This document shows, piece after piece, positions 12,052 through 28,855 of a DNA stretch of 64,000 bases. The notes under the pieces were generated by a model, which did not search any database, had not been told where the DNA came from, and saw nothing but the letters and a program-made list of their open reading frames with translations. The position numbers and the translations under genes were made by a program. Location of the stretch: positions 1 to 64,000 of the forward strand of contig CAIOZY010000039.1 in NCBI GenBank assembly GCA_903862935.1. The letters are read 5' to 3'. The DNA comes from an uncultured Opitutaceae bacterium. Lineage in GTDB: Bacteria > Verrucomicrobiota > Verrucomicrobiia > Opitutales > Opitutaceae. How positions within the stretch are numbered: position 1 is the first letter of the stretch; each line of letters begins with the position of its first letter.

Positions 12052-12704
12052 CCCCTCCCCCGTTCGAGGCCTATTTCGACTTCGACAACACAATCGCCGA
12101 GTTCGACGTCCTCGACGAACTGATCCGGCGCTTCTCGATCGACGAGGAGTGGATGAACGTCGAGGACGCCTGGAGGCGGGGCGAGATCGGCTCCCGGGAG
12201 TGCCTGGAACTGCAGCTGGGAAAGGTGCGGGTGAGCGAGGCCCGCCTGCGGGACTTCCTGCTGACGGTGCCCGTGGACCCGGCCTTCGGACCGGTCGTGC
12301 AGCTGCTCCGGGACAAGAAGGTTGAGCCGGTGATCTTGAGCGACTGCTTCGTGCCGATTATCGAGGCCGTTCTGCAAAACCACGGGATCGAGGGGATCAA
12401 GATCATCGCCAACGACATGCGCCTGGACGGAGAGACCCCGGTCCTGTCTTTCCCGTATTTCGGGGCGATCTGCACGTGCTGCGGCAACTGCAAGACCTCC
12501 CACCTCATGCGCCGCGACCGCCCCCTGGGCACCCGGAAAATCTACGTCGGGGACGGCTCCTCGGACATCTGCCCGGCGGGGTTTTGCGAAATCCTCTTTG
12601 CGAAGGACTCCCTCCTGGAGCACTATAGGCCGCTGAGGCCCGACGTGATCCCCTTCGACAACCTGGAGACCGTTCGCCAGCACCTGGGCCAAATCCTCGC
12701 ATGA
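12048..12704 (+). CDS. HAD-superfamily (MtnX/PSP-like) phosphatase
   Basis: A protein of 218 residues with HAD motif I DFDNT (Asp11 nucleophile and Asp13), motif II in VILSDCF and motif IV as YVGDGSSDICP. The helical cap carrying VEDAWRRGEIGSREC resembles the MtnX/phosphoserine-phosphatase-type IB group, which dephosphorylates small metabolites. A cysteine patch, CTCCGNC, lies near residue 145; it could bind a metal, but its role is unknown. Overlaps with the upstream esterase and downstream aminotransferase (ATGA at both ends) argue that the three proteins act together. MtnX would suggest methionine salvage, but no other salvage gene is nearby, so the substrate stays open. Confidence 0.83.
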   Translation: MTPPPFEAYFDFDNTIAEFDVLDELIRRFSIDEEWMNVEDAWRRGEIGSRECLELQLGKVRVSEARLRDFLLTVPVDPAFGPVVQLLRDKKVEPVILSDCFVPIIEAVLQNHGIEGIKIIANDMRLDGETPVLSFPYFGAICTCCGNCKTSHLMRRDRPLGTRKIYVGDGSSDICPAGFCEILFAKDSLLEHYRPLRPDVIPFDNLETVRQHLGQILA

Positions 12705-14110: not shown

Positions 14111-14119
14111 AAAGCCCGG

Positions 14120-14377
14120 TCAGCCGGCCTGCTGCTTCGCAAGCCAGGTCGCCACGTACTCGGTGATGTCCTTCACGCGGCGGACGTGCTCGATCTCGCT
14201 GTCGGGAATCTTGAGCCCGAAGGCCTCCTCGATCTCGAACATGAGCTCAATCGCGCCGAAGGAGTCGACACCGAGATCCTCGGCCAGCCGGGATTCGGAG
14301 GTGATCTTGTCCTCGGCGACGCCCAGCTTCTTGGCGAGGATCCTCCTGATCTTGGCTTCGATTTCCTGGTTCGTCAT
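14120..14377 (-). CDS. acpP: Acyl carrier protein
   Basis: An 85-residue acidic four-helix protein. The phosphopantetheine attachment serine is Ser39 in LGVDSFGAIEL; the common ACP motif is DSLDxVEL, so SFGA is a variant and could mark a specialised carrier. It shuttles acyl chains between fatty-acid-type enzymes in the cytoplasm. fabF lies 6 bp upstream on the same strand, the classic pairing. It converges with the class III aminotransferase only 9 bp away. If the genome has another acpP with DSLD, this one would be the dedicated carrier of a side pathway. Confidence 0.93.
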   Translation of the reverse strand: MTNQEIEAKIRRILAKKLGVAEDKITSESRLAEDLGVDSFGAIELMFEIEEAFGLKIPDSEIEHVRRVKDITEYVATWLAKQQAG

Positions 14378-14383
14378 GTGGAT

Positions 14384-15619
14384 TCACCTCACTTCGGCAA
14401 AAACAAGGGCCGCATTGCAACTCCCAAATCCAAAAGAATTAGACAGGATGGCGGAGATTTTCGCGGCACGCCCCTTCAACGGCACGTAGTCCAGGTCGCA
14501 CTCCGGGTCGGGGCTGGTCAGGTTTATCGTCGGGGGAATGAACTGGGAGCGGATCGCCTGGACGCACACGACGGCCTCGATCGCCCCGGCGGCCCCCAGC
14601 GAGTGGCCGATCATCGACTTTGTGGCCGAGATGGGAATCTCGCGGGCCCTTGCCCCGAACACGGCCTTGATGGCCTTGGTCTCGGCGATGTCGTTGGCCC
14701 GGGTGGAGGTCGCGTGCGCGTTGATGTAGTCGACCCGCTCTAGCCCCGCGTCCTTCAGGGCGGCCACCATCACGCGGGCCGCGCCCCCCCCCTCGGGGTC
14801 GGGCATCACCATGTGGTGAGCTCCCGAGTTACTCGCGTAGCCGGCCACCTCGGCGAGGATCTCGGCTCCTCGGGAGCGGGCCCGCTCGTAGTCCTCCAAA
14901 ACGAGGATCGCCCCTCCCTCCCCCATGACAAATCCGTCCCTTGCGGCGTCGAATGGCCGCGAGGCGGCCGCCGGCTCGTCGTTTCGCTTGGAGAGCACGC
15001 GCATCGCGCTGTACGCCCCGAAGTTGAACCGCGTGAGCGGGGCCTCGACCCCGCCCGCCAGGCAGGCGTCGATCTCGCCGTACTGGATCTTGCGCAAAGC
15101 CTCGCCAATCGCGTTCGCCCCCGAGGCGCACGCGGTCGAAATCACCAGGTTCGGCCCGCGGCACCCGTACCGGATCGCGATCTGGGAGGAGACCGCGTTG
15201 GGGCTGATCCGGGGAACCGACACGGGGCTGATCCGGCCCGCCCCGCGCTCGAGCGCGGCGACGATCTGCTCCTCGTGGAACAACTGCCCGCCGACGCCGG
15301 AGCCGATGATGACCCCGACCCGGTCCGCCGCGGACCCGGCCAGGTCGAGCCCGCTCTGCTTGAGCGCCATCGCGGAGCAGGCGAGCCCGAAGTGGACAAA
15401 CCGGTCGATTTTGGGGACGAGTTCCTCAGGGATGAAGTCCTTCGGCTGGAAGCCTCTGACCTGGCCCCCGATCTGGGAGGTGAACTCGGCTGTGGGGAAG
15501 GCGTCGATCCGCGTGATCCCGGACCTGCCCTCGGCGTTGGCGCGCCAGAACTCGTCCGCGCCGACGCCGTTGCAGGCGACAACACCCAACCCCGTGACGA
15601 CAACGCGGCGTTTGTTCAT
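14384..15619 (-). CDS. fabF: 3-oxoacyl-[acyl-carrier-protein] synthase II
   Basis: A protein of 411 residues, the standard length. It condenses malonyl-ACP with a growing acyl chain. The Cys-His-His triad is intact: Cys164 in STACASGAN, His302 in NAHATST and His339 in TKSMIGHSLGAAGAIE. The C-terminal loop NSFGFGSCNAAL is canonical. It is followed 6 bp later by acpP. A 106-bp gap separates it from the Ehr-type operon upstream. FabF is the default reading; because the ACP is atypical and an aminotransferase/esterase operon faces it, a specialised condensing role is also possible. Confidence 0.94.
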   Translation of the reverse strand: MNKRRVVVTGLGVVACNGVGADEFWRANAEGRSGITRIDAFPTAEFTSQIGGQVRGFQPKDFIPEELVPKIDRFVHFGLACSAMALKQSGLDLAGSAADRVGVIIGSGVGGQLFHEEQIVAALERGAGRISPVSVPRISPNAVSSQIAIRYGCRGPNLVISTACASGANAIGEALRKIQYGEIDACLAGGVEAPLTRFNFGAYSAMRVLSKRNDEPAAASRPFDAARDGFVMGEGGAILVLEDYERARSRGAEILAEVAGYASNSGAHHMVMPDPEGGGAARVMVAALKDAGLERVDYINAHATSTRANDIAETKAIKAVFGARAREIPISATKSMIGHSLGAAGAIEAVVCVQAIRSQFIPPTINLTSPDPECDLDYVPLKGRAAKISAILSNSFGFGSCNAALVFAEVR

Positions 15620-15725
15620 GAGCAGCAGCTAGGTTTCGCAGAGGCTCTGCCTCCGAAAACCTGCCACCTTTGTAGCCGACGGGGCATCCCCACGGCAAAG
15701 CTAAAGTGGGCGGGCCTCCCTCCGG

Positions 15726-16532
15726 TCAGGGCCGCGCCGGGGGCCCTGAGGCGCCCTCGAGGCGCCCGAGCAGCCTTAAGAGCCCGTCGAGGATCGTGAG
15801 CGGATGGGGCGGGCAGCCGGGGATGAACAGGTCGACCGGCACAACCGAGGAGGCGCCCGTCCCCGCTTGGGGATTTTTCTCAAAGGGCCCTCCCGAAATC
15901 GCGCAGGCCCCGACCGCGATCACAATCTTGGGCTCGGGAACGGCGTCATAGGTGCGGCGCAGCGCCAGCTCCATGTTCCGGGTCACCGGCCCGGTGATCA
16001 GCAGCCCGTCGGCGTGCCGCGGGGAGGCGACAAACTGGATTCCGAACCGGCCCAGGTCCCAGCCGATCGTGCCCAGGACGTTCGTGTCGGCCTCGCAGGC
16101 GTTGCACCCGCCGGCGCTCACCTGGCGCAGCCGGAGCGAGCGGCCGAACATCTTCCTCAATTTCTCGTCCAGCTCGGCCGCGAGCCGGACCTGCTCCTGC
16201 CCCGCGGCCCCCAGAACCAGCTCGCCTCGGGCCCTGACCGCCATGCGGTGGTCCCCGGTGTGGGAGACCGCCCCGTGCGAGCAGGCCTCGACGCATGCCG
16301 AGCAGAAGATGCAGCGCCCCAGGTCGAGGGCGGTCGGCTGGCCGGCCGGGCGGGTGATCGCCTCGGTTGGGCACACCGGCAGGCACTCCCCGCAGCCCTC
16401 GGGGCAGCGGGCCGCGTCGAGCCTGAGGGCCCCCCCGTGGCGGTCCGGCAGCGCAGGCGCCGGGCCCTTCGGGTAGGCCATCGTCTGGCAGCCGCTGCGC
16501 AGCCGGTGGGCGATCGCGTCTAGGACAAACAT
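15726..16532 (-). CDS. Hyf/Hyc-type small subunit fused to ferredoxin (HyfH-HyfI/NuoI-NuoB-like)
   Basis: A protein of 268 residues. Residues about 38-100 form a two-cluster ferredoxin (CPEGCGECLPVCP and CIFCSACVEACS), like HycF/HyfH. Residues about 130-260 are the NuoB/HycG-like small subunit, keeping the N2-type [4Fe-4S] cysteines in GGCNACEAD, VGACAISGG and IPGCPPHP. In E. coli these are separate subunits, so this is a fusion. It would pass electrons from a donor through the ferredoxin clusters to the large subunit at the membrane surface. It is the last gene of the operon, 13 bp after the large subunit. Confidence 0.9.
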   Translation of the reverse strand: MFVLDAIAHRLRSGCQTMAYPKGPAPALPDRHGGALRLDAARCPEGCGECLPVCPTEAITRPAGQPTALDLGRCIFCSACVEACSHGAVSHTGDHRMAVRARGELVLGAAGQEQVRLAAELDEKLRKMFGRSLRLRQVSAGGCNACEADTNVLGTIGWDLGRFGIQFVASPRHADGLLITGPVTRNMELALRRTYDAVPEPKIVIAVGACAISGGPFEKNPQAGTGASSVVPVDLFIPGCPPHPLTILDGLLRLLGRLEGASGPPARP

Positions 16533-16545
16533 GGAGGGCGGCAGC

Positions 16546-18027
16546 TCACAAGTCGTGGCCGCAGTAGGACAGGTTGAAACTCTTGTTGCACAGCGGGAAG
16601 TCGGAGACCGCCTGGCTTCTCATCGCGATCGCCACCCCCGTCCAGTTGTGGAAGGACGGGTCGGTGATCTTGTAGCGGCGAAGGCGCCCCTCCCCGCCGG
16701 TCAGGGCCACGTGGCAGACCTCGCCTCGCCAGCCCTCCACAAGGCAGGCGGCCAGCGTGTCGGGCGCCGGCGCTTCCACCGGCTCGCGCACTGGCCCATC
16801 GGGGGCGTTCGAGAGTTCGTCGGCGACGAACCGCCCCGACCTCTGCAGCTCGAGCCAGCGCACCCGGGCGCGGGCGAAGACGTCGCCGCCAGGCCAGACC
16901 GCAACCGGGGCCTGGGCGAAGCGGTGCCACCCGCAGGGATGGTCGAACCGGACGTCGCGCACAAGCCCGCAGGCCCTTGCCGCCGGGCCCACGAGGCCCA
17001 CCTCGGTAGCCTGCCGGGTCGAAACGCTGCCCGTGTGCTCGAAGCGGGATCGGACCGAGGCGGCGTCCCAGAGCCAGGCGCAGGCCTCATCGGCCTCGGC
17101 GTTGGCGACAGCGAGGCGCTCGGCCAGGGTCTTGATCCGGGCCGGCTCCAGGTCGACCCGGCAGCCCCCGGGGCGAACCAGGCTGCGGCCGAATCGGTTG
17201 CCGCAGATCAGCGCCGTCAGGTTCAGGTAATCGCCGCGGATCTTCCCGCAGGCGGCCGACGTGGGAAGGAAGGCGACGTCCCCGGCCATGGCGCCGAGGT
17301 CGCCGGTGTGGTTGGCGAGCCTCTCGAGTTCGAGGGCGATCGCCCTCAGCCACTGGGCCTTCAGCGGAGGCTCGGCTCCCGCCAGGGCTTCCATCACGCC
17401 CGCATGCGCCGTCGTGTGCGCGATCGTGGTATCCCCGGCCGCGGTCTCAATCTGGGACAGGCTCGCCCGGTGCGGCCCCCCGACCAGGGCCTCCTCGATC
17501 CCGCGGTGCTGGTAGCCGAGCGCGATCTCCAAGTGCAGCACCTCTTCGCCCGCGCACTGGAAGCGGAAATGCCCCGGCTCGATGATGCCGGCGTGCACGG
17601 GGCCCACGGCCACCTCGTGGATCTCAGGGCCCTCGACACGGAAGAAATCGATGACCCCCGGGCCCGCCTCCCCGGCCCGGCGCACGGCCTTCAGCCACGG
17701 ATGGCCCTGGGGCATGACCCCGTGCTGCTCCCAGACTTCGCGCTCGAACAGGTGCGCCTGCGGGTGGGTCGCCGCCAGGGACGGGTACTTCCCGGAGAAC
17801 GGACGGCTGCGGCCGACTGCCAGGCTGTTGTCCGCGTCGTAGGCGATCAGGGCCACCAGCCGCACGGCCGGTCCCTCGGACAGGCCGAACCACGAGCACA
17901 GCCGCGCCCCCCGGTCCAGTTCCTTCCCCGTGGCCTGCACAAGCTCCTCGGGCGCAAACTCCGGCACCTCCGCCCAAGGCAGGGCGGTGGCGTTTGCGAG
18001 CAGGGCAAATGGGGAGTTCGCGCTCAT
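16546..18027 (-). CDS. Hydrogenase-4/complex-I-like large subunit without NiFe ligands (HyfG/NuoC-NuoD-like)
   Basis: A protein of 493 residues from the ATG at 18027, which overlaps the HyfF stop by ATGA. The N-terminal third resembles the NuoC 30-kDa domain (HLFEREVWEQHGVMPQGHPWL), and the rest the NuoD/HycE 49-kDa domain (LGYQHRGIEEAL). A true [NiFe] subunit has RxCGxC near the first match and DPCxxC at the end. Here the equivalents read QIETAAGDTTIAH and DFPLCNKSFNLSYCGHDL, with no CxxC pair in either place. NiFe cannot be bound in the usual way, so this is probably the large subunit of an energy-converting hydrogenase-related (Ehr) complex with an unknown redox partner. Confidence 0.9.
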   Translation of the reverse strand: MSANSPFALLANATALPWAEVPEFAPEELVQATGKELDRGARLCSWFGLSEGPAVRLVALIAYDADNSLAVGRSRPFSGKYPSLAATHPQAHLFEREVWEQHGVMPQGHPWLKAVRRAGEAGPGVIDFFRVEGPEIHEVAVGPVHAGIIEPGHFRFQCAGEEVLHLEIALGYQHRGIEEALVGGPHRASLSQIETAAGDTTIAHTTAHAGVMEALAGAEPPLKAQWLRAIALELERLANHTGDLGAMAGDVAFLPTSAACGKIRGDYLNLTALICGNRFGRSLVRPGGCRVDLEPARIKTLAERLAVANAEADEACAWLWDAASVRSRFEHTGSVSTRQATEVGLVGPAARACGLVRDVRFDHPCGWHRFAQAPVAVWPGGDVFARARVRWLELQRSGRFVADELSNAPDGPVREPVEAPAPDTLAACLVEGWRGEVCHVALTGGEGRLRRYKITDPSFHNWTGVAIAMRSQAVSDFPLCNKSFNLSYCGHDL

Positions 18028-19469
18028 TTGACCGGGGGCGTCAGCTGCGCGACTGCATCGGACCAAGCGGTGTGCAGTACGGAGGGCGTGGCCAGGCCGA
18101 GCCAGACCGAAAGCCCGAGCAGAATCAGGGGCGGCACGACAACCCCCGCCGTCTCGGGGAAGAGCTTGCCCGCGGTGCGGGCGGCCGTGCGGGGCCGGCC
18201 GTCAACGATCGCAAATACAAGCCTCGTCAGCCCGAAGAAGGGGAACAGCAGGCTCCCCAGGAACACGGCGGCCGCCATCCCGTGCCCGCCGCTGAGGGCC
18301 GCCTTGAGGACTAGCAGCTCGCTGAAGAACGGGCCAAACGGAGGGCAGGCCGTGACCGCGAACATGCCGGTGACAAACAGCGCCGCCGAGCGGGGCGTCA
18401 GGACCGACATCCCCCCCACCTCGTCCACGGTGCGGGCGCCCGCGGCCCGGCGGATGTTGCCCGCGCTCAGGAAGAGCGAACCCTTTGTCAGGGAATTGTT
18501 CCAGATGTGGAAGAGCGCCGCCCAGACGCCGGCCCCGCCGATCGAGGCGGCGAAGCTGAGGATGCCCATGTGCTCGACGCTCGAGTAGGCGAGCATCCGC
18601 TTGAAGTCGCGGGTTCCCAGCAGAAACAGGGCGGCCACCACCATCGAGAAAAGCCCGATCACCATCAGCGTTATGCCCGCTTCCCGGCCCGCTCCCGCCG
18701 CGTCGATGACGGCGCGCACCCTCAAGACCGCGGCGAAGGCCACCGTCGTCACGCCCCCGGCGAGCATCGCCCCAACCATCCCGGGGGCCTCCCCGTAGGC
18801 GTCGGGTTTCCAGGTGTGCATCGGGGCGAGCCCCATCTTGGTCCCGTAGCCGGCCAATAGGAGCACCCAGGCGATCAGCACCCACGGGCGCGACAGCGCC
18901 ACCCCCTGGGCGGACAGGGCGGCGAACGTCAGGTCCCCGGCCCCTCCCCCCTGGAGCGAGGCGTAGCCCAGGCAGAACGAACCCAGCAGCGAAAGGGCGA
19001 TCCCGGTGCCGCCGACCAGCAGGTACTTCCAGGTCGCCTCGAAGGCCCGCGGCGTCCCGTTGAAGTGGATCAGGGGGACCGACGCGAAGGTCACCGCCTC
19101 GGTCGCGATCCACAGCAACCCCAGATGGCGGGCCTGGTGGGCGAGGCTCATCAGCCCGAAGGCGGCCAACAGCCCCGCCACGAAGACCCGGTTGGAGCGC
19201 TCCGAGCGCGTGCGCAGATACGAGACTCCGTACAAAGAGCACGCCAGGAAAAGCAGCGAGACGGCGGGCAGGATCGCCCGGGCCAGCGGGTCGAATCCGA
19301 GCCAGGCCCCGGCCGGCACCTGCGGGGGGGATACGAGCAGCCAGAGCGACAGGGCCGTGTGGACGATCCCGGTGGCGGGCAGCAGCCACGGCCGGGTCCG
19401 GTTGTCGGGCCAGGCTGCGGCGGCCAGGGCGGCCGCCAGGGGGATTCCGATTAAGAAGTACTGCGTCAT
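18024..19469 (-). CDS. Antiporter-like membrane subunit (HyfF/NuoN-like)
   Basis: A protein of 481 residues made of about 14 hydrophobic segments. It belongs to the Mrp/NuoL-M-N antiporter-like family that moves ions in complex I and group-4 hydrogenases. The lysine-bearing segment YGTKMGLAPMHTWKPDAYGEAPG is the HyfF-type hallmark, and RDFKRMLAYSSVEHMG carries another conserved charged helix. The ATG at 19469 overlaps the HyfE stop, and its own stop overlaps the large-subunit start. It is the third antiporter-like subunit of this operon, after two HyfB-type ones. Confidence 0.9.
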   Translation of the reverse strand: MTQYFLIGIPLAAALAAAAWPDNRTRPWLLPATGIVHTALSLWLLVSPPQVPAGAWLGFDPLARAILPAVSLLFLACSLYGVSYLRTRSERSNRVFVAGLLAAFGLMSLAHQARHLGLLWIATEAVTFASVPLIHFNGTPRAFEATWKYLLVGGTGIALSLLGSFCLGYASLQGGGAGDLTFAALSAQGVALSRPWVLIAWVLLLAGYGTKMGLAPMHTWKPDAYGEAPGMVGAMLAGGVTTVAFAAVLRVRAVIDAAGAGREAGITLMVIGLFSMVVAALFLLGTRDFKRMLAYSSVEHMGILSFAASIGGAGVWAALFHIWNNSLTKGSLFLSAGNIRRAAGARTVDEVGGMSVLTPRSAALFVTGMFAVTACPPFGPFFSELLVLKAALSGGHGMAAAVFLGSLLFPFFGLTRLVFAIVDGRPRTAARTAGKLFPETAGVVVPPLILLGLSVWLGLATPSVLHTAWSDAVAQLTPPVK

Positions 19470-20107
19470 TCGTGGAGCGCCGTCAGCTTTCGGGTGTCGA
19501 GGGAGTCGAAGGCCCGCTGGATCCGGTCGACGATGATGCCGATCACGAACACGGCCACAGTCAGGTCGAGGAGGATCCCCGCCTCCACCAGAAGGGGCAT
19601 CGCGTGGATCAGCAGCAGTCCGAAGAGGTACACCCCGTTGTCCAGGATCAAGTAGCCGCACACCTGGGAGATGGCCTTCGACCGTGCGATCAGCAGGATA
19701 AAGCCGGTCAGGATCGCGGCGACCGAGCCCGGGACCAGGAGCAAGCCCCGGTGCTCGGGCAGGAGCGGCACCACGCGGACAAGCGCCACCGCGGCGATCG
19801 TGCCGGCGGCCCCGAGAAGCAGCGAGGGGATGAATCCGATCAGCGGATCCAGGTCGCGGTCGATGTTGGCGGCCCGCATCGCGTGCCTGAGGAGAGTCGG
19901 GATCACGACCCCTTTGACGACCGCCGTCGTCACGGCCGTCAGGGCGACGAGCCAGCTGAAGTGGTGCTCCATCAACAGAGGCATGAGCCCCAGGACGACG
20001 CCCTGCGCGGCGGCGACCCGGATCAGCGAGGGAAGCCGGCTGCTGCCCAGGGCGAGCAGGTTCAGGCCCATGGAGATTCCGATCAGCAGGTTCAGGCCCG
20101 AACTCAC
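19466..20107 (-). CDS. HyfE-like membrane subunit
   Basis: A small membrane protein of 213 residues with about six to seven hydrophobic segments, ending in a charged tail (VDRIQRAFDSLDTRKLTALHE). The position between HyfC and HyfF, the length and the segment pattern match HyfE, the counterpart of complex I NuoK with extra helices. The GTG at 20107 overlaps the HyfC stop (GTGA) and gives VSSGLNLLIGISMGLN; an upstream start would lie inside HyfC. It is expected to be embedded in the membrane arm and to couple redox to ion movement. Confidence 0.87.
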   Translation of the reverse strand: MSSGLNLLIGISMGLNLLALGSSRLPSLIRVAAAQGVVLGLMPLLMEHHFSWLVALTAVTTAVVKGVVIPTLLRHAMRAANIDRDLDPLIGFIPSLLLGAAGTIAAVALVRVVPLLPEHRGLLLVPGSVAAILTGFILLIARSKAISQVCGYLILDNGVYLFGLLLIHAMPLLVEAGILLDLTVAVFVIGIIVDRIQRAFDSLDTRKLTALHE

Positions 20108-21012
20108 GCGGCACCTCCGTTCCAGGCGACGAGAAGGGCAAACAGGCACAGCAGGAAGGCCGTCGTCAGCAATAACGGCACCCTGCGGAAGGCAAACCGC
20201 GCCAGGAGCGACTCCACGAGCCCGACCCCCACCGTGACGGCGAGGACGCCCCCGGCCAGGACCGCAACCGCCGCGGGGAAGGACAGTCCGCCCAGCGGCA
20301 CCACCGCCTGGACCAGCAGCAGGGCATACAGCAGCAGCTTCATCGAGGCCCCGTGCAGGATCACCGCCAGGGGCGGTCCGCTGTGGTCGAGGACCATCAC
20401 CTCGTGGATCATCGTGAGCTCAAGGTGGGTGGCGGGGTCGTCGAAGGGAACGCGGCAGTTCTCCGCCAAAAGAACCGTGAACAGCCCGGCGGCCAAAAGC
20501 ACCCCCCCGGAGCCGACGGCCGGCTCCATCATGCGCGCCAGGGAAACGCTGCCGCTTTGGACGCTCAGGGCGAGGACCGCGGTGATCACGGAGGCCTCGG
20601 CCAGCACGGCGTAGCTGACCTCGCGGGCCGCGCCCATCCCCTCAAAGGACGAACCGGTCTCCATCGCCGCCCAGGCGGTGCAGAACCGGGCCAGGGCGAG
20701 GAGATAGACCAGGAGAATCACATCCCCCCGGAAACTCAGCAGCGAACCCAGGGGGCCGAGCGGCAACAGCAGCGCCGCCCCGGCGACCGCCACCCAGGCG
20801 ACCGCAGGTCCGGCGATGAAGCCCGGCGAGGCCAGATCGCTTAGGACGACACCCTTCCTCCAGAGGCGGGCCAGGTCGTAGTAGAGCTGCAGGACGGGGG
20901 GGCCGCGGCGCCCGGCGACCCAGGCTTTGACGCGGTTTACGATCCCCGGCAAAAGCGGTGGCAGGAGAAACCACAGGCCGATCCGCACAATGAACTCAAC
21001 ACTCGCCATCAT
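20104..21012 (-). CDS. HyfC/NuoH-like membrane anchor subunit
   Basis: A protein of 302 residues with about eight hydrophobic segments, homologous to NuoH/HycD/HyfC, which links the soluble redox arm to the membrane arm. The typical N-terminal stretch PGIVNRVKAWVAGRRGPPVLQ is present. So is the charged loop ENCRVPFDDPATHLELTMIHE, the acidic signature of this subunit. The ATG at 21012 overlaps the stop of the downstream-numbered HyfB copy (ATGATGG). It completes the minimal membrane module HyfC-E-F plus HyfB. Confidence 0.93.
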   Translation of the reverse strand: MMASVEFIVRIGLWFLLPPLLPGIVNRVKAWVAGRRGPPVLQLYYDLARLWRKGVVLSDLASPGFIAGPAVAWVAVAGAALLLPLGPLGSLLSFRGDVILLVYLLALARFCTAWAAMETGSSFEGMGAAREVSYAVLAEASVITAVLALSVQSGSVSLARMMEPAVGSGGVLLAAGLFTVLLAENCRVPFDDPATHLELTMIHEVMVLDHSGPPLAVILHGASMKLLLYALLLVQAVVPLGGLSFPAAVAVLAGGVLAVTVGVGLVESLLARFAFRRVPLLLTTAFLLCLFALLVAWNGGAA

Positions 21013-22952
21013 GGGCGGGCCTCCATCGCCGTGAGAATCCCGAGGCCGGCGAGCCCGGCCACGATGTACAGGATGTAGAAGCGGAGGCGGCCGTGCTGCA
21101 ACCGTCGGACCAGCGTGGAGAGCTGGAGCACCCCCAGGGCGGCCGGCGCAACCGCATCCTCGAGCACCGTCTCCGGAATGCGTTCGAAGCGGTGGGCCCT
21201 CGCAGGGAACAGGCCCCTCGGACGCTGGGACCATCCCTGCGGCCGCAGGGCCCACGAGAACCATCCCGAGATGATGCCCGAAAACGATCCGACCGTGTAC
21301 TGCATGCGGGCCGTGGGCTCGGCGTAGCCACAGGACCAAGTCGGCGCCCGCTTGAGCCCGCCGTCCCGCACCCGCCTGCCCAGGAGCGCAGCGGCGACAA
21401 GCGCAAGGCCCGCCAGGACAAGGTTGCACAACCCCAGGGCGAGGACTGCCCAGGGCATTGGGCCGACGGGACCGCGCCAGGCCCCGGCCGCGCGGGCGAT
21501 CGACGGCCACAGGGGAGCGGGCGCCAGGCCGATGACCGCGCCCAGGGCGGCGAGCGCCGCCATGGGGCCGATCATGAGGTCCGGGCTCTCGTGGGCGTGA
21601 TCGGAGGTGCCCCCGCGGGAGGCCCCCAGGAACACGGCGGAACAGGCCTTCACGAAGGCGGCCAGCGCCAGCGCCCCGGAGATGCCCAGCAGGATCGCTG
21701 CCGGGATCGCCGCCCAGGCCGCAGGGCTGCGGCTCGAGGCCGCGCCGAGAAGCCCCAGGTAGATCATCCACTCACTCACAAATCCCCCCAGGGGCGGCAG
21801 GCCCGAGATCGCGACCGACCCGAAGGCAAATAGGGCCGCCGTCTTGGGCATGCGCTTCCACAGCCCGCCCAGGCGGCTCATGTCTCGGGTGCCGGTGGCG
21901 TGGACGACCGAACCCGCCCCGAAAAACAGCAGCGCCTTGGAAAGCCCGTGGCTCCACACGTGCAGGAGGGCGCCCGCCAGGGCGAGCCCCCCCCAGCTCG
22001 TGCCGCCCTGTTCCGAACCCAGGAGCGCGGCCCCCAGGCCCACCCCGATGATCCCGACATTCTCGACCGTGCAGTAGGCCAGAAGCCGCTTCAGGTCGGT
22101 CTGCGAGACGGCGAAGGCCATCCCCGCCAGGGCGCTCACCGCGCCCCCGAAGATCAGCACCCAGCCCGCCTCGTGCGGCACCGGCAGCCAGCCGGTGAAG
22201 CGGACCAGCCCGTAGACACCCATATTGATCATGACCCCGGAGAGGATCGCCGAGACGTGGCTGGGGGCGCTCGCATGCCCCGAGGGCAGCCAGACATGCA
22301 GGGGGAACAGTCCCGCCTTCAACCCGAACCCGACAAGCCCGAGCCAGAACAGGGGCGCAAGACCGGCGTTGTCCCGCATCGGCCCCAGGTCCCAGCTGCC
22401 GGTGCGCGAGGCGATCCCGCAAAAAAAGCCGAACAGGCACAGGGTTCCCGCGTGCGAGGCCGCCAGGTACAGCCATCCGGCCGGCCTCGCCCCGGCGCTG
22501 TCCGGGTCGAGGATGATCAGGAAGTACGCGGCCAGGACGAAGGCCTCCCAGGCCAGGAGGAAGTGCAGCCCGTTCGAGGCGAGGAGGACGCCCCCCATGC
22601 TGACGACCAGGGCGCTCCACAGGGCCCGTCCCCGCGGGGCCGACCTCGGATACTGGGCGTCGGACCAGTAGGAGCGCGAATAGACCGCCCCCGCCCCCCC
22701 CACGACCCCCAACAGCGCGAGAAAAAGGGCGCTCAAGCCGTCGAGCCGCAGATGGAGCTGCTCCCCGCCCACGCTGAACCCTCCCCGCCATTCCCACGGT
22801 TCGCCGCCCCCGAGGATGTGGGCGGAGGCCGCGATGAAGGCGGCCGCTCCGGCGAGGGTCAGGGCGATCCACAGCCTCGGAAACCGGGGCCCTAAAAGGC
22901 AGCCCAGGAGGAGGGCCGCCGCGGCAACGAACAGGATGGGCCCGTCCGTCAT
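21009..22952 (-). CDS. HyfB/NuoL-like antiporter subunit, copy 1
   Basis: A protein of 647 residues rich in membrane segments. The antiporter-like core contains FGLKAGLFPLHVWLPSGHAS, the conserved Lys/His helix of NuoL/HyfB, and QTDLKRLLAYCTVENVGI. The C-terminal part has SCGYAEPTARMQYTVGSFSG, typical of HyfB. It is closely similar along its whole length to the other HyfB-like gene at 23608-25584, from which it is separated only by the EIIA-HTH gene. The ATG at 22952 overlaps that gene's stop (ATGA), so the set is translated as a coupled unit. Confidence 0.92.
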   Translation of the reverse strand: MTDGPILFVAAAALLLGCLLGPRFPRLWIALTLAGAAAFIAASAHILGGGEPWEWRGGFSVGGEQLHLRLDGLSALFLALLGVVGGAGAVYSRSYWSDAQYPRSAPRGRALWSALVVSMGGVLLASNGLHFLLAWEAFVLAAYFLIILDPDSAGARPAGWLYLAASHAGTLCLFGFFCGIASRTGSWDLGPMRDNAGLAPLFWLGLVGFGLKAGLFPLHVWLPSGHASAPSHVSAILSGVMINMGVYGLVRFTGWLPVPHEAGWVLIFGGAVSALAGMAFAVSQTDLKRLLAYCTVENVGIIGVGLGAALLGSEQGGTSWGGLALAGALLHVWSHGLSKALLFFGAGSVVHATGTRDMSRLGGLWKRMPKTAALFAFGSVAISGLPPLGGFVSEWMIYLGLLGAASSRSPAAWAAIPAAILLGISGALALAAFVKACSAVFLGASRGGTSDHAHESPDLMIGPMAALAALGAVIGLAPAPLWPSIARAAGAWRGPVGPMPWAVLALGLCNLVLAGLALVAAALLGRRVRDGGLKRAPTWSCGYAEPTARMQYTVGSFSGIISGWFSWALRPQGWSQRPRGLFPARAHRFERIPETVLEDAVAPAALGVLQLSTLVRRLQHGRLRFYILYIVAGLAGLGILTAMEARP

Positions 22953-23623
22953 TTCCGGTCCCCCGACCCGGCCGCGGCAAAGATCTCGGCGTCGCTTGCG
23001 CCGCGCACCACCAGCTCCTTGAGCGGTCCGCGGGTCAGCGCCCGGCTCAGGCGCCCCAGCAACTCCAGGTGGATCCGCGGCGAGGGCGCCAGGAAGAACA
23101 GCAGCCGGGTCACCGGCACCCCGTCGGCCGGGGCCTCCGCAAGGGCCAGGCCCTCCCGGAGCATCAGGATCGCCACGGCGCCGTGGTCGCGGCCCATCGC
23201 GATCCGCGCCTTCAGGTGCGGAAGGGCGAATCCGCCGCCGACCGGGGCCCAGTTCACCCCGTCCTCGGAGCAGAGCTTCTTCGCCAGAAGGGTGCGCACC
23301 GGTGCGGCCACTCCCGGCAGCGCCTCGACCACCTTCGCCAGGCGGGCGGTCACCTCGGAAGCGGGCACGTCGCGCCAGATCCCCCCGGCCCGCAGGAGCG
23401 CCTCCAGGTCCAGGTCCGTCGAAAACGCCGAGCCCTCGGCCGCAAGGAAGCCCGCCTGGGCGGCCAACCCGCGCTCCGCGGCCCACGCCACGACCTGCGC
23501 CCGATCGAAGATCAGCCGGCCCCGGTCGGGGACATGCGGCAGCCCCTCGTTGCGGATCCAGTCGTCAACGACCTTCTCCGGAACCCCGAAGGATTCGGCG
23601 ATCTGGATCAGGTTAAGATACAT
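22949..23623 (-). CDS. PtsN-like PTS EIIA domain protein with N-terminal HTH
   Basis: A soluble protein of 224 residues. Residues 1-60 read as an excisionase/MerR-type helix-turn-helix (LIQIAESFGVPEKVVDDWIR, then LPHVPDRGRLIFDRAQVVAW). Residues about 75-210 resemble PTS EIIA of the nitrogen/fructose class, with the likely phospho-His in GGGFALPHLKAR. No EIIB or EIIC sugar-permease partner lies nearby. It is locked between two HyfB-type subunit genes, overlapping the first by 16 bp and the second by ATGA. It is therefore most likely a regulator or phosphorylation-sensing accessory of the Ehr-type complex rather than a sugar transporter part. That role is inference. Confidence 0.85.
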   Translation of the reverse strand: MYLNLIQIAESFGVPEKVVDDWIRNEGLPHVPDRGRLIFDRAQVVAWAAERGLAAQAGFLAAEGSAFSTDLDLEALLRAGGIWRDVPASEVTARLAKVVEALPGVAAPVRTLLAKKLCSEDGVNWAPVGGGFALPHLKARIAMGRDHGAVAILMLREGLALAEAPADGVPVTRLLFFLAPSPRIHLELLGRLSRALTRGPLKELVVRGASDAEIFAAAGSGDRK

Positions 23624-25584
23624 GCGAGGAAGATGATTGCGGCCAGTCCGGCCAGTCCGGCAAGCACATACAGCAGGTAGGCGGGCAGCCGGCCGTGCTG
23701 CAGGCTGCGGGCCCCGAGGGCAACCCTCATCACCACCCTGGCCGCCGGGCCCACCACCCGCTCAAGCACGGCCTCCGGTGTGTGGTCATCCAGGCTCGAG
23801 GGGACCCCCTCGTCCACGATGGGGGCCCGTCCCGGCCCTTGTCCCGCAGGGACTTGCGTCCGATGCGTCAGGAGCACCCCCTCAAACCATCCGGTGATGA
23901 TCCCCGCGAAGGACCCGGCGGTGTACTGCATGCGCGCCGTCGGCTCGGCGTAGCCGCAGCACCACGTGGAAGCCCGCCGCAGGCTCCCGGCAGCCGTCCG
24001 CCGCCACAGGAGGGCGGCCGCCGCCGCTCCGAGGATGGCCACCACCAGGCTGCAAAGCCCCAGCGTCCGAAGCTCGGCCGGGGCCGCCGCCGCCGGGCCC
24101 GCCCCGGTCCAGTCGGCAGCCGCCCGGGCAACCGCAGGCCACGCCAGCACCGGGAAAAGCCCGATTGCCGCGCAAAGGGCCGCAAGCGCCACCATCGGCC
24201 CCAGCATGGCCCATCCGCTCTCATGGGCCCGCCTGGCGGCCTCCGAGCGCGCAGCCCCTAGGAAGACGACCGCGGAGGCCTTCGTGAAGCAGGCGAGCGC
24301 CAGGGCCCCGGTCACGCCGAGCAGGATCGCGCTGACGACGGCTAGAAGCGATGACGCCCCCCGGGCGTGGACCGCGTCGAAGAGTCCGAGGTAGACCAGC
24401 CACTCGCTCACAAATCCGTTCAGGGGGGGCAGGCCCGAGATCGCCGCAGCGCCCAGAGCGAAGAGCGCGGCCGTCCACGGCATCCGCCTCCACAGGCCGC
24501 CGAGCCCGCTCATCCGCCGGCATCCGGTCGCGTGGAGGACCGAGCCCGCCCCGAGGAAGAGCAGCGCCTTGAAAAGCCCGTGGTTCCACACGTGCAGGAG
24601 CGCCCCGGCCATTGCGAGCAGGCCCCAGGCGGCGTGGCCCCGGCTGGCCGCCACCAGGGCGAACCCGAAGCCGATCAGAATGATGCCGATATTCTCCACG
24701 CTGTGGTAGGCGAGCAGCCGCTTCAGGTCGTGCTGGCCCAGCGCGAAGGCGACCCCTAGGACCGCGCTCACCAGGCCCAGGGCCGTGATCACCCAGCCCG
24801 CAGCTGCCGGGACCGGCAGCCAGCCGCCGAAGCGGATCAAGCCATAGATGCCCATCTTGATCACGACCCCCGATAGGAGCGCCGAGGCGTGGCTCGGCGC
24901 GCTCCCGTGGGCGGAGGGCAGCCAGATGTGCAGCGGGAAGGCTCCGGCCTTGATCCCAAAGCCGATCAGGGCGAGCCAGAACAGGGGGGCCAGTTCCGGG
25001 TGGCCCCGCACCGGGCCCAGCTCCCAGGTCCCCAAGCGCGCTGCCAGGACGCCGAAGAGCCCGAACAGGCACAGGGTCCCGACGTGGGAGGCGGCCAGGT
25101 AGAGCCATCCGGCCTGGCGCGCCTCACGCCGGCTCTGGTCGAGGGTGATCAGGAAAAACGACCCCAGGACGAACCCCTCCCAGGCGATGAGAAAGTGAAG
25201 CCCGTTTGTGGCGACGAGGATGAACCCCATCGCAAGCAAGATCTCGCTCCACCACAGCCTCCCCCGGGAGGCCGAGCGCGGGTGCGCGGCGTCCGTCCAG
25301 TAACCCATCGAGTAGACCGCCCCGGCCCCCCCGACGACGCAGACCAGGGCAAGAAACAGGGCGCTCAACCCGTCAAGCCTTAGGTGCACCGGCTGCCCGG
25401 CGACCTCGAACCCGCCCGGCCAGTCCCAGGCCGGCCCGCCCCACAGGACGAAGGCGCAGGCCCCAAGCCCCGCCGCCGTCCCCACAAGGACGAGCGCAAG
25501 CCACGCCCTGGGGAAGCGCAGGAAGGCCGCGGCGCCGAGCGCCGAGCCGAGGGCGATCACGAGAAGCGGGCCGGTCGGTGTCAT
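23608..25584 (-). CDS. HyfB/NuoL-like antiporter subunit, copy 2
   Basis: A protein of 658 residues, paralogous to the gene at 21009-22952. Shared landmarks are FGIKAGAFPLHIWLPSAHGS, QHDLKRLLAYHSVENIGI and the C-terminal CCGYAEPTARMQYTAGSFAG. Both copies keep the charged helices needed for proton or sodium movement. The ATG at 25584 gives MTPTGPLLVIALGSALGAAAF, a hydrophobic start; the frame upstream runs into ruvC and lacks family similarity. It is the first complex gene of the operon, 26 bp after ruvC. Two HyfB copies plus HyfF give three antiporter-like subunits, the number found in complex I. Confidence 0.92.
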   Translation of the reverse strand: MTPTGPLLVIALGSALGAAAFLRFPRAWLALVLVGTAAGLGACAFVLWGGPAWDWPGGFEVAGQPVHLRLDGLSALFLALVCVVGGAGAVYSMGYWTDAAHPRSASRGRLWWSEILLAMGFILVATNGLHFLIAWEGFVLGSFFLITLDQSRREARQAGWLYLAASHVGTLCLFGLFGVLAARLGTWELGPVRGHPELAPLFWLALIGFGIKAGAFPLHIWLPSAHGSAPSHASALLSGVVIKMGIYGLIRFGGWLPVPAAAGWVITALGLVSAVLGVAFALGQHDLKRLLAYHSVENIGIILIGFGFALVAASRGHAAWGLLAMAGALLHVWNHGLFKALLFLGAGSVLHATGCRRMSGLGGLWRRMPWTAALFALGAAAISGLPPLNGFVSEWLVYLGLFDAVHARGASSLLAVVSAILLGVTGALALACFTKASAVVFLGAARSEAARRAHESGWAMLGPMVALAALCAAIGLFPVLAWPAVARAAADWTGAGPAAAAPAELRTLGLCSLVVAILGAAAAALLWRRTAAGSLRRASTWCCGYAEPTARMQYTAGSFAGIITGWFEGVLLTHRTQVPAGQGPGRAPIVDEGVPSSLDDHTPEAVLERVVGPAARVVMRVALGARSLQHGRLPAYLLYVLAGLAGLAAIIFLACILT

Positions 25585-25610
25585 CGGGTTCGCGTTCGGG
25601 GTTCCCCGGT

Positions 25611-26192
25611 TCAGCCCCTCCAGGTGAAGGCGTGGCAGAGCGCCACCCCGGCCGCGTCCGCCTCGTCGTAGGCCAGGGCCCGCTGGTGGCCCAGAAGCGC
25701 CATCACGGTTCGCGCCACCTGCTCTTTGCTCGCCCGGCCGGCCCCGACGACGGCCTGCTTGACCCGAAGGGGCGCGTATTCGAAGACCGGAAGTTCCAGG
25801 AGCGCCGCCGCCGCGATCGCCGCCCCGCGAGCGGCCCCGAGAATCTGGGCGGTGCGGACGTTTTGAACGTAGATCGGCTGTTCGAGCGCCACGTGGCGGG
25901 CGCCGGCCCCCGCCAGGATCGCCGTGACCTCCCGGTGGATTTCGGCCAGGGCCGAGGACATCGGGCGGCTGCTCGGGACGCGGACCGTGCGGCTGCGAAG
26001 CAAAAGAGGCGTCTGCCCCGGCGTGAACTCCACCAGCGCAAGCCCGGTGCCGCGCAGCGACGGATCGATTCCCAGGACTCTGCCCGAGAACGGTTTGCGC
26101 CCCGCCGGCGAGCCGTCCGCCCAGACCGCGGTCCGGGCCGGGCCCGTCCCCCGCCCCTCCAGCTTGGCCTTCCACATCTGCCGGACGTTCAT
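25611..26192 (-). CDS. ruvC: Holliday junction resolvase RuvC
   Basis: A protein of 193 residues that cleaves Holliday junctions during recombination with RuvAB. Its acidic active site is visible: Asp in [11 protein letters not shown] near residue 41, Glu in [16 protein letters not shown], and the C-terminal pair in [14 protein letters not shown]. The [16 protein letters not shown] helix is also canonical. About 38 N-terminal residues precede the fold, more than in E. coli. The ATG at 26192 was chosen over a TTG at 26219. It lies just upstream of the Ehr-type operon on the same strand, probably by accident of layout. Confidence 0.92.
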
Positions 26193-26351
26193 GGTTGCGA
26201 CCCGTTTCGTGTACCTCAAAGGCTCCCCTAGCCGCGAGGCTAATCTTGGTCCGGCTTCCGATCCCCGGCTCGCCCAATCCCCCCATGTCCCCCCCCAAGA
26301 GGCGACCCTGAGCTTGGCTAACGGCCCCGCCCGTGCCTATCATGCGGCCCG

Positions 26352-26912
26352 ATGAACTTCGAATCATCCCTCGCCGAGACGACCCGGGCGCTTCAGGCCC
26401 TGCCGACGATCCGCCCCTCAATCGACCAGGCCGCCCGGCTGATCCTCGACACCCTCCGGCGCGGAGGAAAGCTCCTGATCGCGGGCAACGGCGGGAGCGC
26501 CGCCGAGGCCGCGCACTTCGCCACCGAGCTGGTGGGCCGCTACGCGAAGAGCCGCCGCTCGCTGCCGGCCGTGGCGCTGTCCTCGGACGGGTCGCTTCTG
26601 TCGTGCATCGGAAACGACTTCGGGTTTGACCAGGTCTTCGCCCGGCAGATCGCCGGCCTGGGCAAGCCGGGCGACCTGGTGGTCGTCCTCACCTCGAGCG
26701 GAAACTCCCCGAACGTGGTCGCGGCCCTGCAGCAGGCCAAGGCGTTGGGGCTCGAGTCGGTCGCCTTCCTCGGGCGCGGCGGCGGGAAGGCCAAGGGGCT
26801 CGCCACGTGCGAGCTGATCATTCCCGGCAACAGCGGCGCAGCCGCCCAGGAGGCGCACCTGTTCCTGATTCACCACTTCTGCGAACTGATCGACGAAGCG
26901 TTTCCCGGCTAG
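26352..26912 (+). CDS. gmhA: Phosphoheptose isomerase-like SIS protein
   Basis: A protein of 186 residues with the sugar-isomerase fold. Key blocks are IAGNGGSAAEAAHFATELVG near residue 43 and VVLTSSGNSPNVVAAL near residue 112, followed by QEAHLFLIHHFCELID near the end, which carries the GmhA histidine pair. GmhA converts sedoheptulose-7-phosphate to D-glycero-D-manno-heptose-7-phosphate for LPS core or S-layer glycans. No gmhB or hldE is adjacent. It is divergent from ruvC, and its stop abuts the stop of the convergent M48 peptidase gene with no spacer. Confidence 0.9.
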   Translation: MNFESSLAETTRALQALPTIRPSIDQAARLILDTLRRGGKLLIAGNGGSAAEAAHFATELVGRYAKSRRSLPAVALSSDGSLLSCIGNDFGFDQVFARQIAGLGKPGDLVVVLTSSGNSPNVVAALQQAKALGLESVAFLGRGGGKAKGLATCELIIPGNSGAAAQEAHLFLIHHFCELIDEAFPG

Positions 26913-28154
26913 TCAGCGGGCGGCCGTCAGCGCGCGCTCCCGCTCGAAGGGCGTGGGGTGCGAGTAGTGGAAGGCGCTGAACCAGGGATGGGGCGTGAGG
27001 TTCGTCAGGTTCTTCTCGGCAAGTTTTCGCAGGGCCCCGACCATGCCCTCAGGCCCGCCCAGGGCATCCCGGGCAAACGCGTCGGCCTCGTACTCGTGGC
27101 GCCGCGACAGGCCGTTGAAAAGCGGCGAGAGCCAGAAGGTGACCAGCCCGCCCAAAAGGCCGCACAGAAGGAGCGCCGGGGCGGCCGCCCCGGCGGGATA
27201 GCCGAAGGCGGGGTTGAACCAGGCCGAGCCGGCGAGGGCGGCAACGGCCGCAAGGCACGCGAAGAGCCCGGCCGTGGACAGGGCGAGCCTCTTGGGGATG
27301 TGGCCGCAGCGGTAATGCCCGATCTCGTGGGCGAGGACAGCCTCCAATTCAAGGGGGGAGAGCTGGGCAACCAGGGTGTCGAAAAGGACGATCCGCCGGA
27401 AGCGGCCGAACCCGGTGAAAAAGGCGTTCGAATGGCCCGACCTCTTGCTGCCGTCCATCACCTGGATCGAGGCCGCACGAAACCCTGTTTTCTCGCCGAG
27501 GGCCATCAGCCGGGCTCTCAGCTCCCCCTCGGGCAGGGGTTCGAGCCGGTTGAACAGCGGCAGGATCAGCATCGGGTAAAGGACGATCATCACGAGCTGG
27601 ACGGCCGTGACGAGCACCGCCCCCCACACCCACCACAGGGGCCCCACCCACCCCACAAGGGCCAGCAGAGCCCAGACAACCGGAAACCCCAGAGCAAGCC
27701 CCAGGCCGAGCCCCTTGGCCTTGTCGGCGGCCCACAGGCCGGGGCTGGTGCGGTTGAAGCCGAACCGGCTCTCGATCCGGAACTGCTCCCAGGCGTCGAA
27801 AGGAAGCGACAGAAGCGAGAGCAGGACCCCGCAGATCACGACAAAGAGGGCCCCGGCCCACGCCGAACCCGGGGATCCCCAGCCCGAAACCCCGCGGTAG
27901 AGGGCCGGCAAAGCCCCGGTGAGGACCGCGGCGGCGAGGACGACCGCGTCAAAGACCTCGGTCACGCCCCCGAAGAGCGACCGGGCCAGGGTGTAGGCCA
28001 CAGCCTTTGAATAGGTGGGCCCGTCCATAACCGCGGCGGCAGCCGGAGGGGGGGCGTCCGCGTGACGGCTGACCTCGGAGCGGTTCAGCGCCGAAAGCCA
28101 CAGGGAGCCGGCGAGCCGGCCCAGGATCAGGATAGCGACGAGGACCGCTATCAC
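26913..28154 (-). CDS. M48 family metallopeptidase (Ste24/CAAX-protease-like)
   Basis: An integral membrane zinc protease of 413 residues with about seven hydrophobic segments. The metal site is HEIGHY near residue 280, with the third ligand in RRHEYEADAFAR. The N-terminal half carries the AWEQFRIESRFGFNRTSP stretch typical of Ste24-type bacterial relatives. In bacteria, relatives take part in membrane protein quality control; a CAAX substrate is not expected. Its ATG at 28154 overlaps the stop of the YugP-like gene upstream, so the two peptidases are probably one unit. Confidence 0.92.
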   Translation of the reverse strand: MIAVLVAILILGRLAGSLWLSALNRSEVSRHADAPPPAAAAVMDGPTYSKAVAYTLARSLFGGVTEVFDAVVLAAAVLTGALPALYRGVSGWGSPGSAWAGALFVVICGVLLSLLSLPFDAWEQFRIESRFGFNRTSPGLWAADKAKGLGLGLALGFPVVWALLALVGWVGPLWWVWGAVLVTAVQLVMIVLYPMLILPLFNRLEPLPEGELRARLMALGEKTGFRAASIQVMDGSKRSGHSNAFFTGFGRFRRIVLFDTLVAQLSPLELEAVLAHEIGHYRCGHIPKRLALSTAGLFACLAAVAALAGSAWFNPAFGYPAGAAAPALLLCGLLGGLVTFWLSPLFNGLSRRHEYEADAFARDALGGPEGMVGALRKLAEKNLTNLTPHPWFSAFHYSHPTPFERERALTAAR

Positions 28155-28855
28155 CGACGGCGCGACACGAGGTAGAGCAGGTACAGAAGCGAACTGACGA
28201 AGGCCGCCAGGTACGTCAGGGCCGCGGCGTTCAGGGTCTCGTTGACCCCGGGCATCTCATCGGGCTCGAGGACCCCCAGGTTCACCAGCTGCACCTTCGC
28301 CCTCCGGCTCGCGTCAAACTCAACCGGGAGCGTCACCAGGTTGAACAGGGTCAGGACCGCATAGCAGACGATTGCAATGTCCAGGATCAGGCCCGTCAGG
28401 CCCTGGATCAGAAACCAGCTCGCCAGGATGACAAAGGGAAGCACCCCGGAGACGACCCGTGTTGCCGGGACAAGCGCCATGCGAAAGTTGAGCATCTGGT
28501 AGCCGACCTTGTGCTGGATCGCGTGGCCGGCCTCGTGGGCGGCGACCCCGACTGCCGCCAGGCTCGTCCCGCGGTAGTTCTCGCTGGACAGGACCAGCTT
28601 CTTGCCGATCGGGTCGTAGTGGTCGGTCAGGTGCCCCTCGGTCTCCTCGATTGTGACATCGGTGATCCCCGCCTGGGTCATGACCGCCTCGGCCGCCTCG
28701 CGCCCGCTTAAGCCCCCGCGGGACAGAATGCGGGAATTTTTGTCATAGGCGCTCGAGACGCGGATCTGCGCATAGATCGCGAAGATGAAGACCAGGATCA
28801 GCAACAGGTAAAAGACGCCTGTGGAGATGAAGATGAACGCAAGGGGAGCCATCAT
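28151..28855 (-). CDS. YugP-like membrane zinc metallopeptidase
   Basis: A protein of 234 residues with one N-terminal and several later hydrophobic segments. VAAHEAGHAIQHK carries the zinc-binding HEAGH near residue 112. The segments YDPIGKKLVLSSENYRG before it and LPVEFDASRRAK after it are characteristic of the YugP/DUF2268-unrelated zinc metallopeptidase family, whose physiological substrate is unknown. The start could be either of two adjacent ATGs at 28855. It follows the M3 oligopeptidase by 43 bp and overlaps the M48 gene by 4 bp, making a run of three metallopeptidases. Confidence 0.9.
   Translation of the reverse strand: MMAPLAFIFISTGVFYLLLILVFIFAIYAQIRVSSAYDKNSRILSRGGLSGREAAEAVMTQAGITDVTIEETEGHLTDHYDPIGKKLVLSSENYRGTSLAAVGVAAHEAGHAIQHKVGYQMLNFRMALVPATRVVSGVLPFVILASWFLIQGLTGLILDIAIVCYAVLTLFNLVTLPVEFDASRRAKVQLVNLGVLEPDEMPGVNETLNAAALTYLAAFVSSLLYLLYLVSRRR

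Follow-up and report, generated by a model that had tools for sequence, protein, structure and literature searches.

A winged helix-turn-helix protein with an EIIA domain encoded inside an Ehr-type operon of an uncultured Opitutaceae bacterium: a possible accessory protein of the ion-pumping complex

Results and Discussion

The window analysed here is a stretch of 64,000 nucleotides (nt) from an uncultured Opitutaceae bacterium (contig CAIOZY010000039.1 of assembly GCA_903862935.1). At positions 22949..23623 of its minus strand it contains a gene for a protein of 224 amino acid residues, in which a winged helix-turn-helix (wHTH) domain is fused to a PtsN-like EIIA domain of the phosphotransferase system (PTS). 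The gene, referred to below as HTH-EIIA, was identified from its open reading frame (ORF), domain matches, an AlphaFold model and the fold match of that model, and is located between two genes of the HyfB type in an operon of the Ehr type. To judge from the sequences, the fusion has its EIIA histidines intact, is co-encoded with Ehr subunit genes, which it usually overlaps, and occurs in a genome that also contains EI and HPr. The explanation we favour, with slightly less than even confidence, is that it is an accessory protein (a phospho-switch or a subunit) of the Ehr complex of Verrucomicrobiota, derived from a PTS-controlled transcription factor.

Domain structure of the HTH-EIIA protein

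The gene starts with ATG, and the N-terminus MYLN is found in 15/15 relatives from genome_contigs. The wHTH domain consists of residues 1-52 (23468..23623, minus strand, as are all parts of the gene). HTH_17 matches residues 2-51 with 24.1 bits, under the Pfam cut-off of 27, and the AlphaFold model has wHTH secondary structure there; the other Pfam match in the protein is a weak one to Phage_Nu1. A phmmer search with the window protein found PtsN structures and the wHTH domains of terminase small subunits; the fold comparison likewise gave such a domain (7lwr). The EIIA domain, supported by profile, phmmer and fold match, spans residues 70-224 (22952..23416). PTS_EIIA_2 (PF00359) matches residues 129-215 with 23.5 bits, again under the Pfam cut-off of 27, which is exceeded by the close orthologue (30.6-42.6 bits) in five of the nine genomes having one. 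Neither a PRD nor an EIIB domain was found in the protein by the Pfam scan. The model, calculated from an 18-row alignment of the window and genome_contigs sequences, has a mean predicted local distance difference test score (pLDDT) of 84 and a predicted template modelling score (pTM) of 0.69. Its residues 70-223 match the EIIANtr fold of 4gqx with Z 13.3 and a root-mean-square deviation of 2.9 over 142 residues.

The fragment GGGFALPH of the window protein is the EIIA active-site motif. Ten columns are invariant among 47 aligned sequences, the window included: M1, P29, W47, G129, G131, P135, H136, D167, H185 and L186. They contain residues of the active-site motif G-x-G-x-A-x-P-H (G129, G131, P135 and H136) as well as H185, each conserved in 47/47. 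H136 (codon 23216..23218) is the putative phosphorylated histidine, and H185 (codon 23069..23071) is the second conserved histidine of the EIIA domain. The invariance of both histidines and of the active-site glycines points to phosphotransfer being kept.

The HTH-EIIA gene overlaps HyfB-1, an antiporter-like subunit gene (23608..25584, minus strand, PF00361), by 16 nt and HyfB-2, another such gene (21009..22952, minus strand, PF00361), by 4 nt (ATGA). An earlier note on this DNA had described an EIIA domain with an N-terminal HTH encoded between two HyfB-type genes and overlapping both; ORF, Pfam, fold match and overlaps agree with that description. The histidine and the fold, on whose support the note had made its reading depend, are supported by the 47/47 conservation and the match to 4gqx.

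Two types of HTH-EIIA proteins

The distribution of the protein was surveyed in 387 Verrucomicrobiota genomes, many of which appear to be fragmented metagenome-assembled genomes. A profile search gave matches in 97 of them, nine of which (the window's own included) were at E < 1e-100, and further full-length relatives formed a second tier. When genome_contigs was scanned with the single sequence, 15 relatives with 59-68% identity in the best segment were obtained, 14 from Verrucomicrobiota groups and one labelled 'bacterium'; tblastn of the window protein (P0001) against 'plasmids' gave no match. By a division of our own, on the score with profile A1, copies above 300 bits were called type 1 (24, the window included) and those below it type 2 (52). 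One full-length copy (G288:C77) and several found with a broader profile were left out of the fetched loci, and the type-2 copy of L100, which lacks an ATG close to where its start would be expected, is included in the synteny count (52) and excluded from alignments and upstream counts (51). A quick tree built on the EIIA columns places type 1 in one clade on a long branch (Shimodaira-Hasegawa-like approximate likelihood-ratio test support 99).

The recognition helices of the two types were compared with that of BldC, an HTH_17-like protein whose complexes with DNA have been solved. According to PMC5859096, BldC contacts DNA through Lys26, Thr27, Thr29, Arg30, Trp31 and Lys33 in the recognition-helix region and through His46, Arg47 and Arg48 in the wing, and binding is essentially abolished by R30A or H46E. 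Position 21 of the present proteins was equated with Arg30 by the common spacing K-T-x-x-R-W. Type 2 mostly retains E-K-T-V/I-Y-R-W, with R at position 21 in all 14 copies that are not linked to HyfB and R or K in 33/37 of those that are; the other four linked copies have E, T or N. In type 1 the arginine is lost in 24/24, position 21 being D (16), G (6), E (1) or S (1). The canonical Thr and Tyr are also replaced in 24/24, by V, I or M at position 18 and by E, D, K or Q at position 20. The equivalents of both Thr27 and Arg30, as assigned by residue spacing, are thus missing from every type-1 protein. In the window protein the recognition-helix region is EKVVDDWIR (residues 16-24, 23552..23578), where the canonical arginine is replaced by D. 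Despite the lost DNA-reading residues, the HTH is the best conserved domain of type 1: the mean pairwise identity is 0.78 for the HTH and 0.62 for the EIIA domain, while the values for type 2 are 0.51 and 0.49.

Linkage to Ehr operons

Apart from the window, 22 of the 23 type-1 copies adjoin a full or mostly full HyfB-type ORF and L007 adjoins a fragment, giving 23/23 beside a HyfB-type ORF; in L006 the contig ends within the upstream HyfB. Type-2 genes are found directly 5' of a HyfB ORF in 38/52 cases and elsewhere in 14/52 (L102, at a contig edge, may be miscounted as unlinked), and HyfB is directly upstream in 0/52. Three loci (L003, L016 and L066) carry both types, with type 2 ahead of the first HyfB and type 1 behind it. 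A 4-nt overlap with the next ORF (at least 100 residues) is present in 20/24 type-1 genes and 15/51 type-2 genes.

Of the 51 genomes whose HyfG reaches 680 bits or more (the close subtype), 47 carry HTH-EIIA (190 bits or more) among the matches listed, as do 13 of the 336 others, with both cut-offs chosen after the scores were known, profile A4 built from EIIA-linked operons, and a table covering HyfG rows of at least 383 bits and EIIA rows of at least 194 bits. The p-values for this co-occurrence and for the repeats described below overstate independence because the sequences are related. At the level of loci, 41 of the 55 close HyfG genes have HTH-EIIA within 20 kb; for another 10 it is located at a different place in the genome, in some cases because of contig breaks, as in L054 and L055, where the contig with EIIA and HyfB ends before HyfG. 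The linked fraction is 0/4 for HyfG genes at 640-680 bits, 1/51 for distant ones at 450-640 bits (G347, cut by a contig end) and 1/2 below 450 bits.

Four genomes of the close subtype gave no match, among them G359 (see below). The HTH-EIIA gene of G110, immediately before HyfB, is divided between two frames, in G324 only a piece covering the first 25 positions is found, and G379 is uninformative, its contig starting at HyfE. The possibility raised in the earlier note, that the gene is absent from the operons of relatives, can be set aside for this Ehr subtype on the count of 47/51 genomes; the nine distant Ehr loci L104-L112 have no HTH-EIIA beside HyfB. The same was found for L113, L114 and L119, close-subtype operons in whose genomes the EIIA gene is unlinked. 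EIIA-bearing proteins in general, as detected by a broad profile at E <= 1e-12, are present in at least 303/387 genomes, many perhaps with neither the linkage nor the HTH.

Some copies have other surroundings. In L053, L071 and L074, from three genomes with one genus code, HTH-EIIA is outside the Ehr operon and has no 10-bp repeats upstream; a nearby gene in L053 and L071 encodes what we take, by eye, to be a LarC-like protein. In L098 and L099, HTH-EIIA copies are located away from Hyf genes, near plain EIIA genes and genes of the Na+/H+ exchanger family.

Repeats upstream of the HTH-EIIA genes

Direct repeats of (G/T)GACA, or TGTC(C/A) on the other strand, are frequent in the 160 nt preceding type-2 genes, many of them over a TTGACA hexamer. 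With the strict half-site (G/T)GACA, a pair at 10-bp spacing is present before 17 of the 51 type-2 genes, compared with four at a spacing of 20 and four at 30; 200 dinucleotide-shuffle sets gave a mean of 0.04 and a maximum of 1. With GACA alone the counts are 25/51 at spacing 10, seven at 20 and five at 30, and the background of the 10-bp pair elsewhere in the same loci is 58 of 19,773 windows (0.3%). A motif-free repeat count also peaks at spacing 10 (26/51, with a mean chance level of about 6). The repeat-positive type-2 genes belong to 13 family codes and one genome_contigs record, and the pair is located 37-116 nt before the start codon. These 10-bp-phased repeats are the predicted, candidate operator of the type-2 regulators.

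Type 1 has no such repeats, either directly before its EIIA genes (0/24 stretches, strict half-site) or before its operons (0/20 stretches, two of them from the window, with three genomes having an adjacent type-2 gene excluded). In these 20 stretches no direct or inverted 5-mer repeat is clearly over-represented. A sigma-70 scan of window positions 14000-28500 gave a single promoter-like site, on the plus strand, and none on the operon strand; Rfam gave no match in the window at gathering thresholds. In 16 stretches upstream of HyfB from 15 further loci the 10-bp pair is present in two, L106 and L108. These are distant Ehr operons with no neighbouring HTH-EIIA, and the TGTC repeats before their HyfB genes are possibly targets in trans.

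Phosphotransfer components

EI and HPr are present in 30/30 genomes tested. The window's genome has one of each, the EI open frame being 632 residues long, and is among the 7/9 type-1 genomes with an HPr kinase. The absence of EIIB and EIIC stated in the earlier note agrees with the eight operon proteins scanned, none of which matches EIIB or EIIC families, and with the lack of a match to EIIC family PF02378, the one such family searched genome-wide, in the window's genome (95.6% complete). PF02378 is absent from 8/9 type-1 genomes, this one included.

Besides the gene in the Ehr operon, the window's genome has two further EIIA_2 matches. One is an EIIA-DacZ_P-DAC protein (L120:954-2300, minus strand, G000:C28), by its domains a putative diadenylate cyclase under PTS control; six other type-1 genomes have EIIA-matching open frames of similar length (449-458 residues). 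The other is a 288-residue EIIA protein whose gene immediately follows that of a P-type cation ATPase (L121:1352-3967, minus strand, G000:C13). Since its three EIIA domains are found with the pump, a P-type cation ATPase gene and a diadenylate-cyclase-domain protein, the PTS of this genome is suggested to serve in the homeostasis of ions and energy and not in the uptake of sugars.

Proposed function and alternatives

The earlier note had proposed that PTS status controls the expression or the activity of the ion-pumping complex. A PTS-type sensor tied to Ehr is upheld by the conserved gene, its EIIA histidines and fold, the 47/51 co-occurrence, and the presence of EI, HPr and HPr kinase in the genome. 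The control of expression through DNA binding is not upheld for the window clade, in which the recognition-helix Arg and the preceding Thr and Tyr are replaced in 24/24 and no operator-like repeats are found upstream. DNA binding would fit type 2 instead, whose genes mostly come immediately 5' of the first HyfB and often follow a promoter region with repeats. Control of activity is probably the better half of the proposal for the window gene.

In the mechanism we propose, H136 would be phosphorylated by HPr~P according to the ratio of phosphoenolpyruvate (PEP) to pyruvate. In type 2, the phosphorylation state may govern binding of the wHTH to the 10-bp-phased (G/T)GACA repeats before its own gene, and the protein would thereby autoregulate the Ehr operon. 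By the simplest history, such a PTS-controlled regulator, placed before the Ehr genes and binding its own promoter, would be the ancestral state. In type 1, the wHTH would have lost its DNA-reading residues and could now serve as a protein-protein module; made together with HyfB, the protein would act on the assembled pump and tune ion translocation to energy status, comparable to EIIANtr acting on the K+ transporter TrkA. Type 1 is missing the DNA-reading residues and the operator, keeps the EIIA site and the wHTH scaffold, and in most cases overlaps the next gene; action on the protein complex is therefore favoured. In this scheme phosphorylation is presumed, as are the partners and the direction of the effect. 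In a more definite form, to which we give somewhat less credence, the protein is a phospho-switch resident in the very pump whose operon its relatives regulate: with DNA reading lost, the operator missing and the gene locked beside HyfB, it would pass the PEP/pyruvate signal on directly, and in the loci with both types (L003, L016 and L066) one phosphorelay would act on transcription through type 2 and on activity through type 1.

Several observations weigh against an accessory role of this kind. Type 1 retains R24 and R36 in 24/24 and R34 in 23/24, and might bind DNA by another pattern of contacts; its operons, having no type-2 repeats before them, may have another operator. With type 1 forming one clade on a long branch, its lost arginine counts as one event. 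The net charge of the HTH (mean -1.5 in type 1, +2.0 in type 2) was dropped as a discriminator, as type 2 spans -5 to +6, and the argument rests on the contact residues because the charges overlap. In type 2, the GACA 10-bp pair is missing in 26/51 and 14/52 copies are away from HyfB. In G359, which has the close Ehr subtype, the roughly 320 nt that the contig includes ahead of HyfB give no HTH-EIIA match; this genome is a real exception as far as visible.

The retained arginines R24 and R36, the strongly conserved predicted wHTH fold and the resemblance of the type-2 relatives to promoter-binding regulators would suit a type-1 protein that is still a transcription factor, set by EIIA phosphorylation and controlling the Ehr operon from inside through a different operator. 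We consider this unlikely, in view of the Thr, Tyr and Arg replaced in all 24 recognition helices, the 20 type-1 operon stretches without the type-2 repeat or any other over-represented one, and the interior position with its 4-nt overlap into the next gene in 20/24. Constant adjacency to HyfB and the overlaps, together with the occurrence of one HTH-EIIA before each HyfB in L003, L016 and L066, might indicate a factor for assembly or stability of HyfB-type subunits in which EIIA phosphorylation is minor. However, the gene is absent from nine distant Ehr operons, and the EIIA histidines and active-site glycines are among the sole invariant columns, which makes such a role improbable. It is still harder to regard the protein as an ordinary free PtsN-like regulator present in the operon by chance. 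EIIA proteins are indeed common in the phylum (at least 303/387 genomes by the broad profile) and the unlinked type-2 copies would agree with it, but the close subfamily tends to be found where the Ehr subtype is and stays beside HyfB where the gene order has changed, and other EIIAs are present in the genome.

The proposed accessory role has partial parallels elsewhere. The nitrogen-PTS protein PtsN (EIIANtr) shares the EIIA fold, the active-site histidine and a presumed PEP-HPr phosphorelay without sugar transport. As cited in PMC4635465, it acts on TrkA and KdpD. This is a precedent for ion transport being influenced by an EIIA, and it is by analogy that such an effect is proposed here. The window protein differs in its N-terminal wHTH and in the position of its gene inside an Ehr operon, and its genome differs in having the 632-residue EI frame and an HPr kinase. 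EIIA-like domains within transcription factors have a precedent in the PRD-type activators MtlR and ManR (PMC3217849), which likewise combine a DNA-binding-type domain and an EIIA domain in a single protein. Unlike these activators with their EIIA/EIIB-like domains, the window protein has no PRD or EIIB, its wHTH is of the HTH_17 type, and it is not encoded in a sugar PTS operon. With BldC and other HTH_17 or MerR-like wHTH proteins it shares the Pfam domain family, and the 9-bp direct repeats to which BldC binds head to tail (PMC5859096) are comparable to the 10-bp repeats of type 2; type 1 lacks the equivalents of Thr27, Arg30 and (in 23/24) Arg48, and has an EIIA domain added.

A direct link between the fuel status of the cell and an ion pump is suggested. 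Little is known of how Ehr complexes are controlled or which partners they have, and a co-encoded PTS-type sensor would be a conserved and testable handle. The two types may also be regarded as a natural experiment, in which one clade is missing both the DNA-reading residues and the operator, and an operator can be predicted for the sister regulators. Literature joining EIIA or the PTS with Ehr, or describing HTH-EIIA fusions, was not found in a search with poor coverage of subscription journals.

The operon and neighbouring genes

On its sequence, the operon is of the Ehr type as described in PMC6349859, and not a group 4 [NiFe] hydrogenase (Hyf/Hyc): it has HyfB/C/E/F/G/I-like subunits, with a HyfG lacking the NiFe cysteines. 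The Ehr complex, a relative of complex I and group 4 hydrogenases, should be ion pumping. The complexes of Margulisbacteria and relatives in PMC6349859 likewise have group 4 hydrogenase-like subunits without NiFe ligands and antiporter-like subunits, and differ in that a PTS EIIA-type gene is a conserved operon member here; the main text of that paper has no mention of EIIA, PTS or phosphotransferase.

Pfam on eight operon proteins gave the order HyfB-1, EIIA, HyfB-2, HyfC, HyfE, HyfF, HyfG, HyfI, all on the minus strand. After HyfB-2 there follow a HyfC-like subunit of the NADHdh family (20104..21012, PF00146), a HyfE-like ORF of unsure start (19466..20149, PF00420, under the Pfam cut-off), a HyfF-like antiporter subunit (18024..19469, PF00361), a HyfG-like large subunit without NiFe cysteines, also of unsure start (16546..18066, PF00346), and a HyfI-like small subunit with an N-terminal 4Fe-4S region (15726..16532, PF01058 and Fer4 families). 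In pairwise comparison the window HyfG can be aligned with E. coli HyfG, and the NiFe-binding cysteine motifs are missing; neither motif was found in any of the 52 HyfG-type ORFs of the fetched loci (0/52), at least three of which are cut C-terminally.

Beside the end of the operon, the minus strand of 12701-15619 has what we take, by eye, to be genes for a ketoacyl-ACP synthase and for an acyl carrier protein, and the plus strand has one for an aminotransferase. Downstream of HyfI in L003, L008, L011 and L016, and also in L070, a second and more distant HyfB-like gene directly follows the Ehr operon. Where the locus extends far enough, a HyfC-like sequence is found after these second HyfB-like genes, which suggests tandem complexes.

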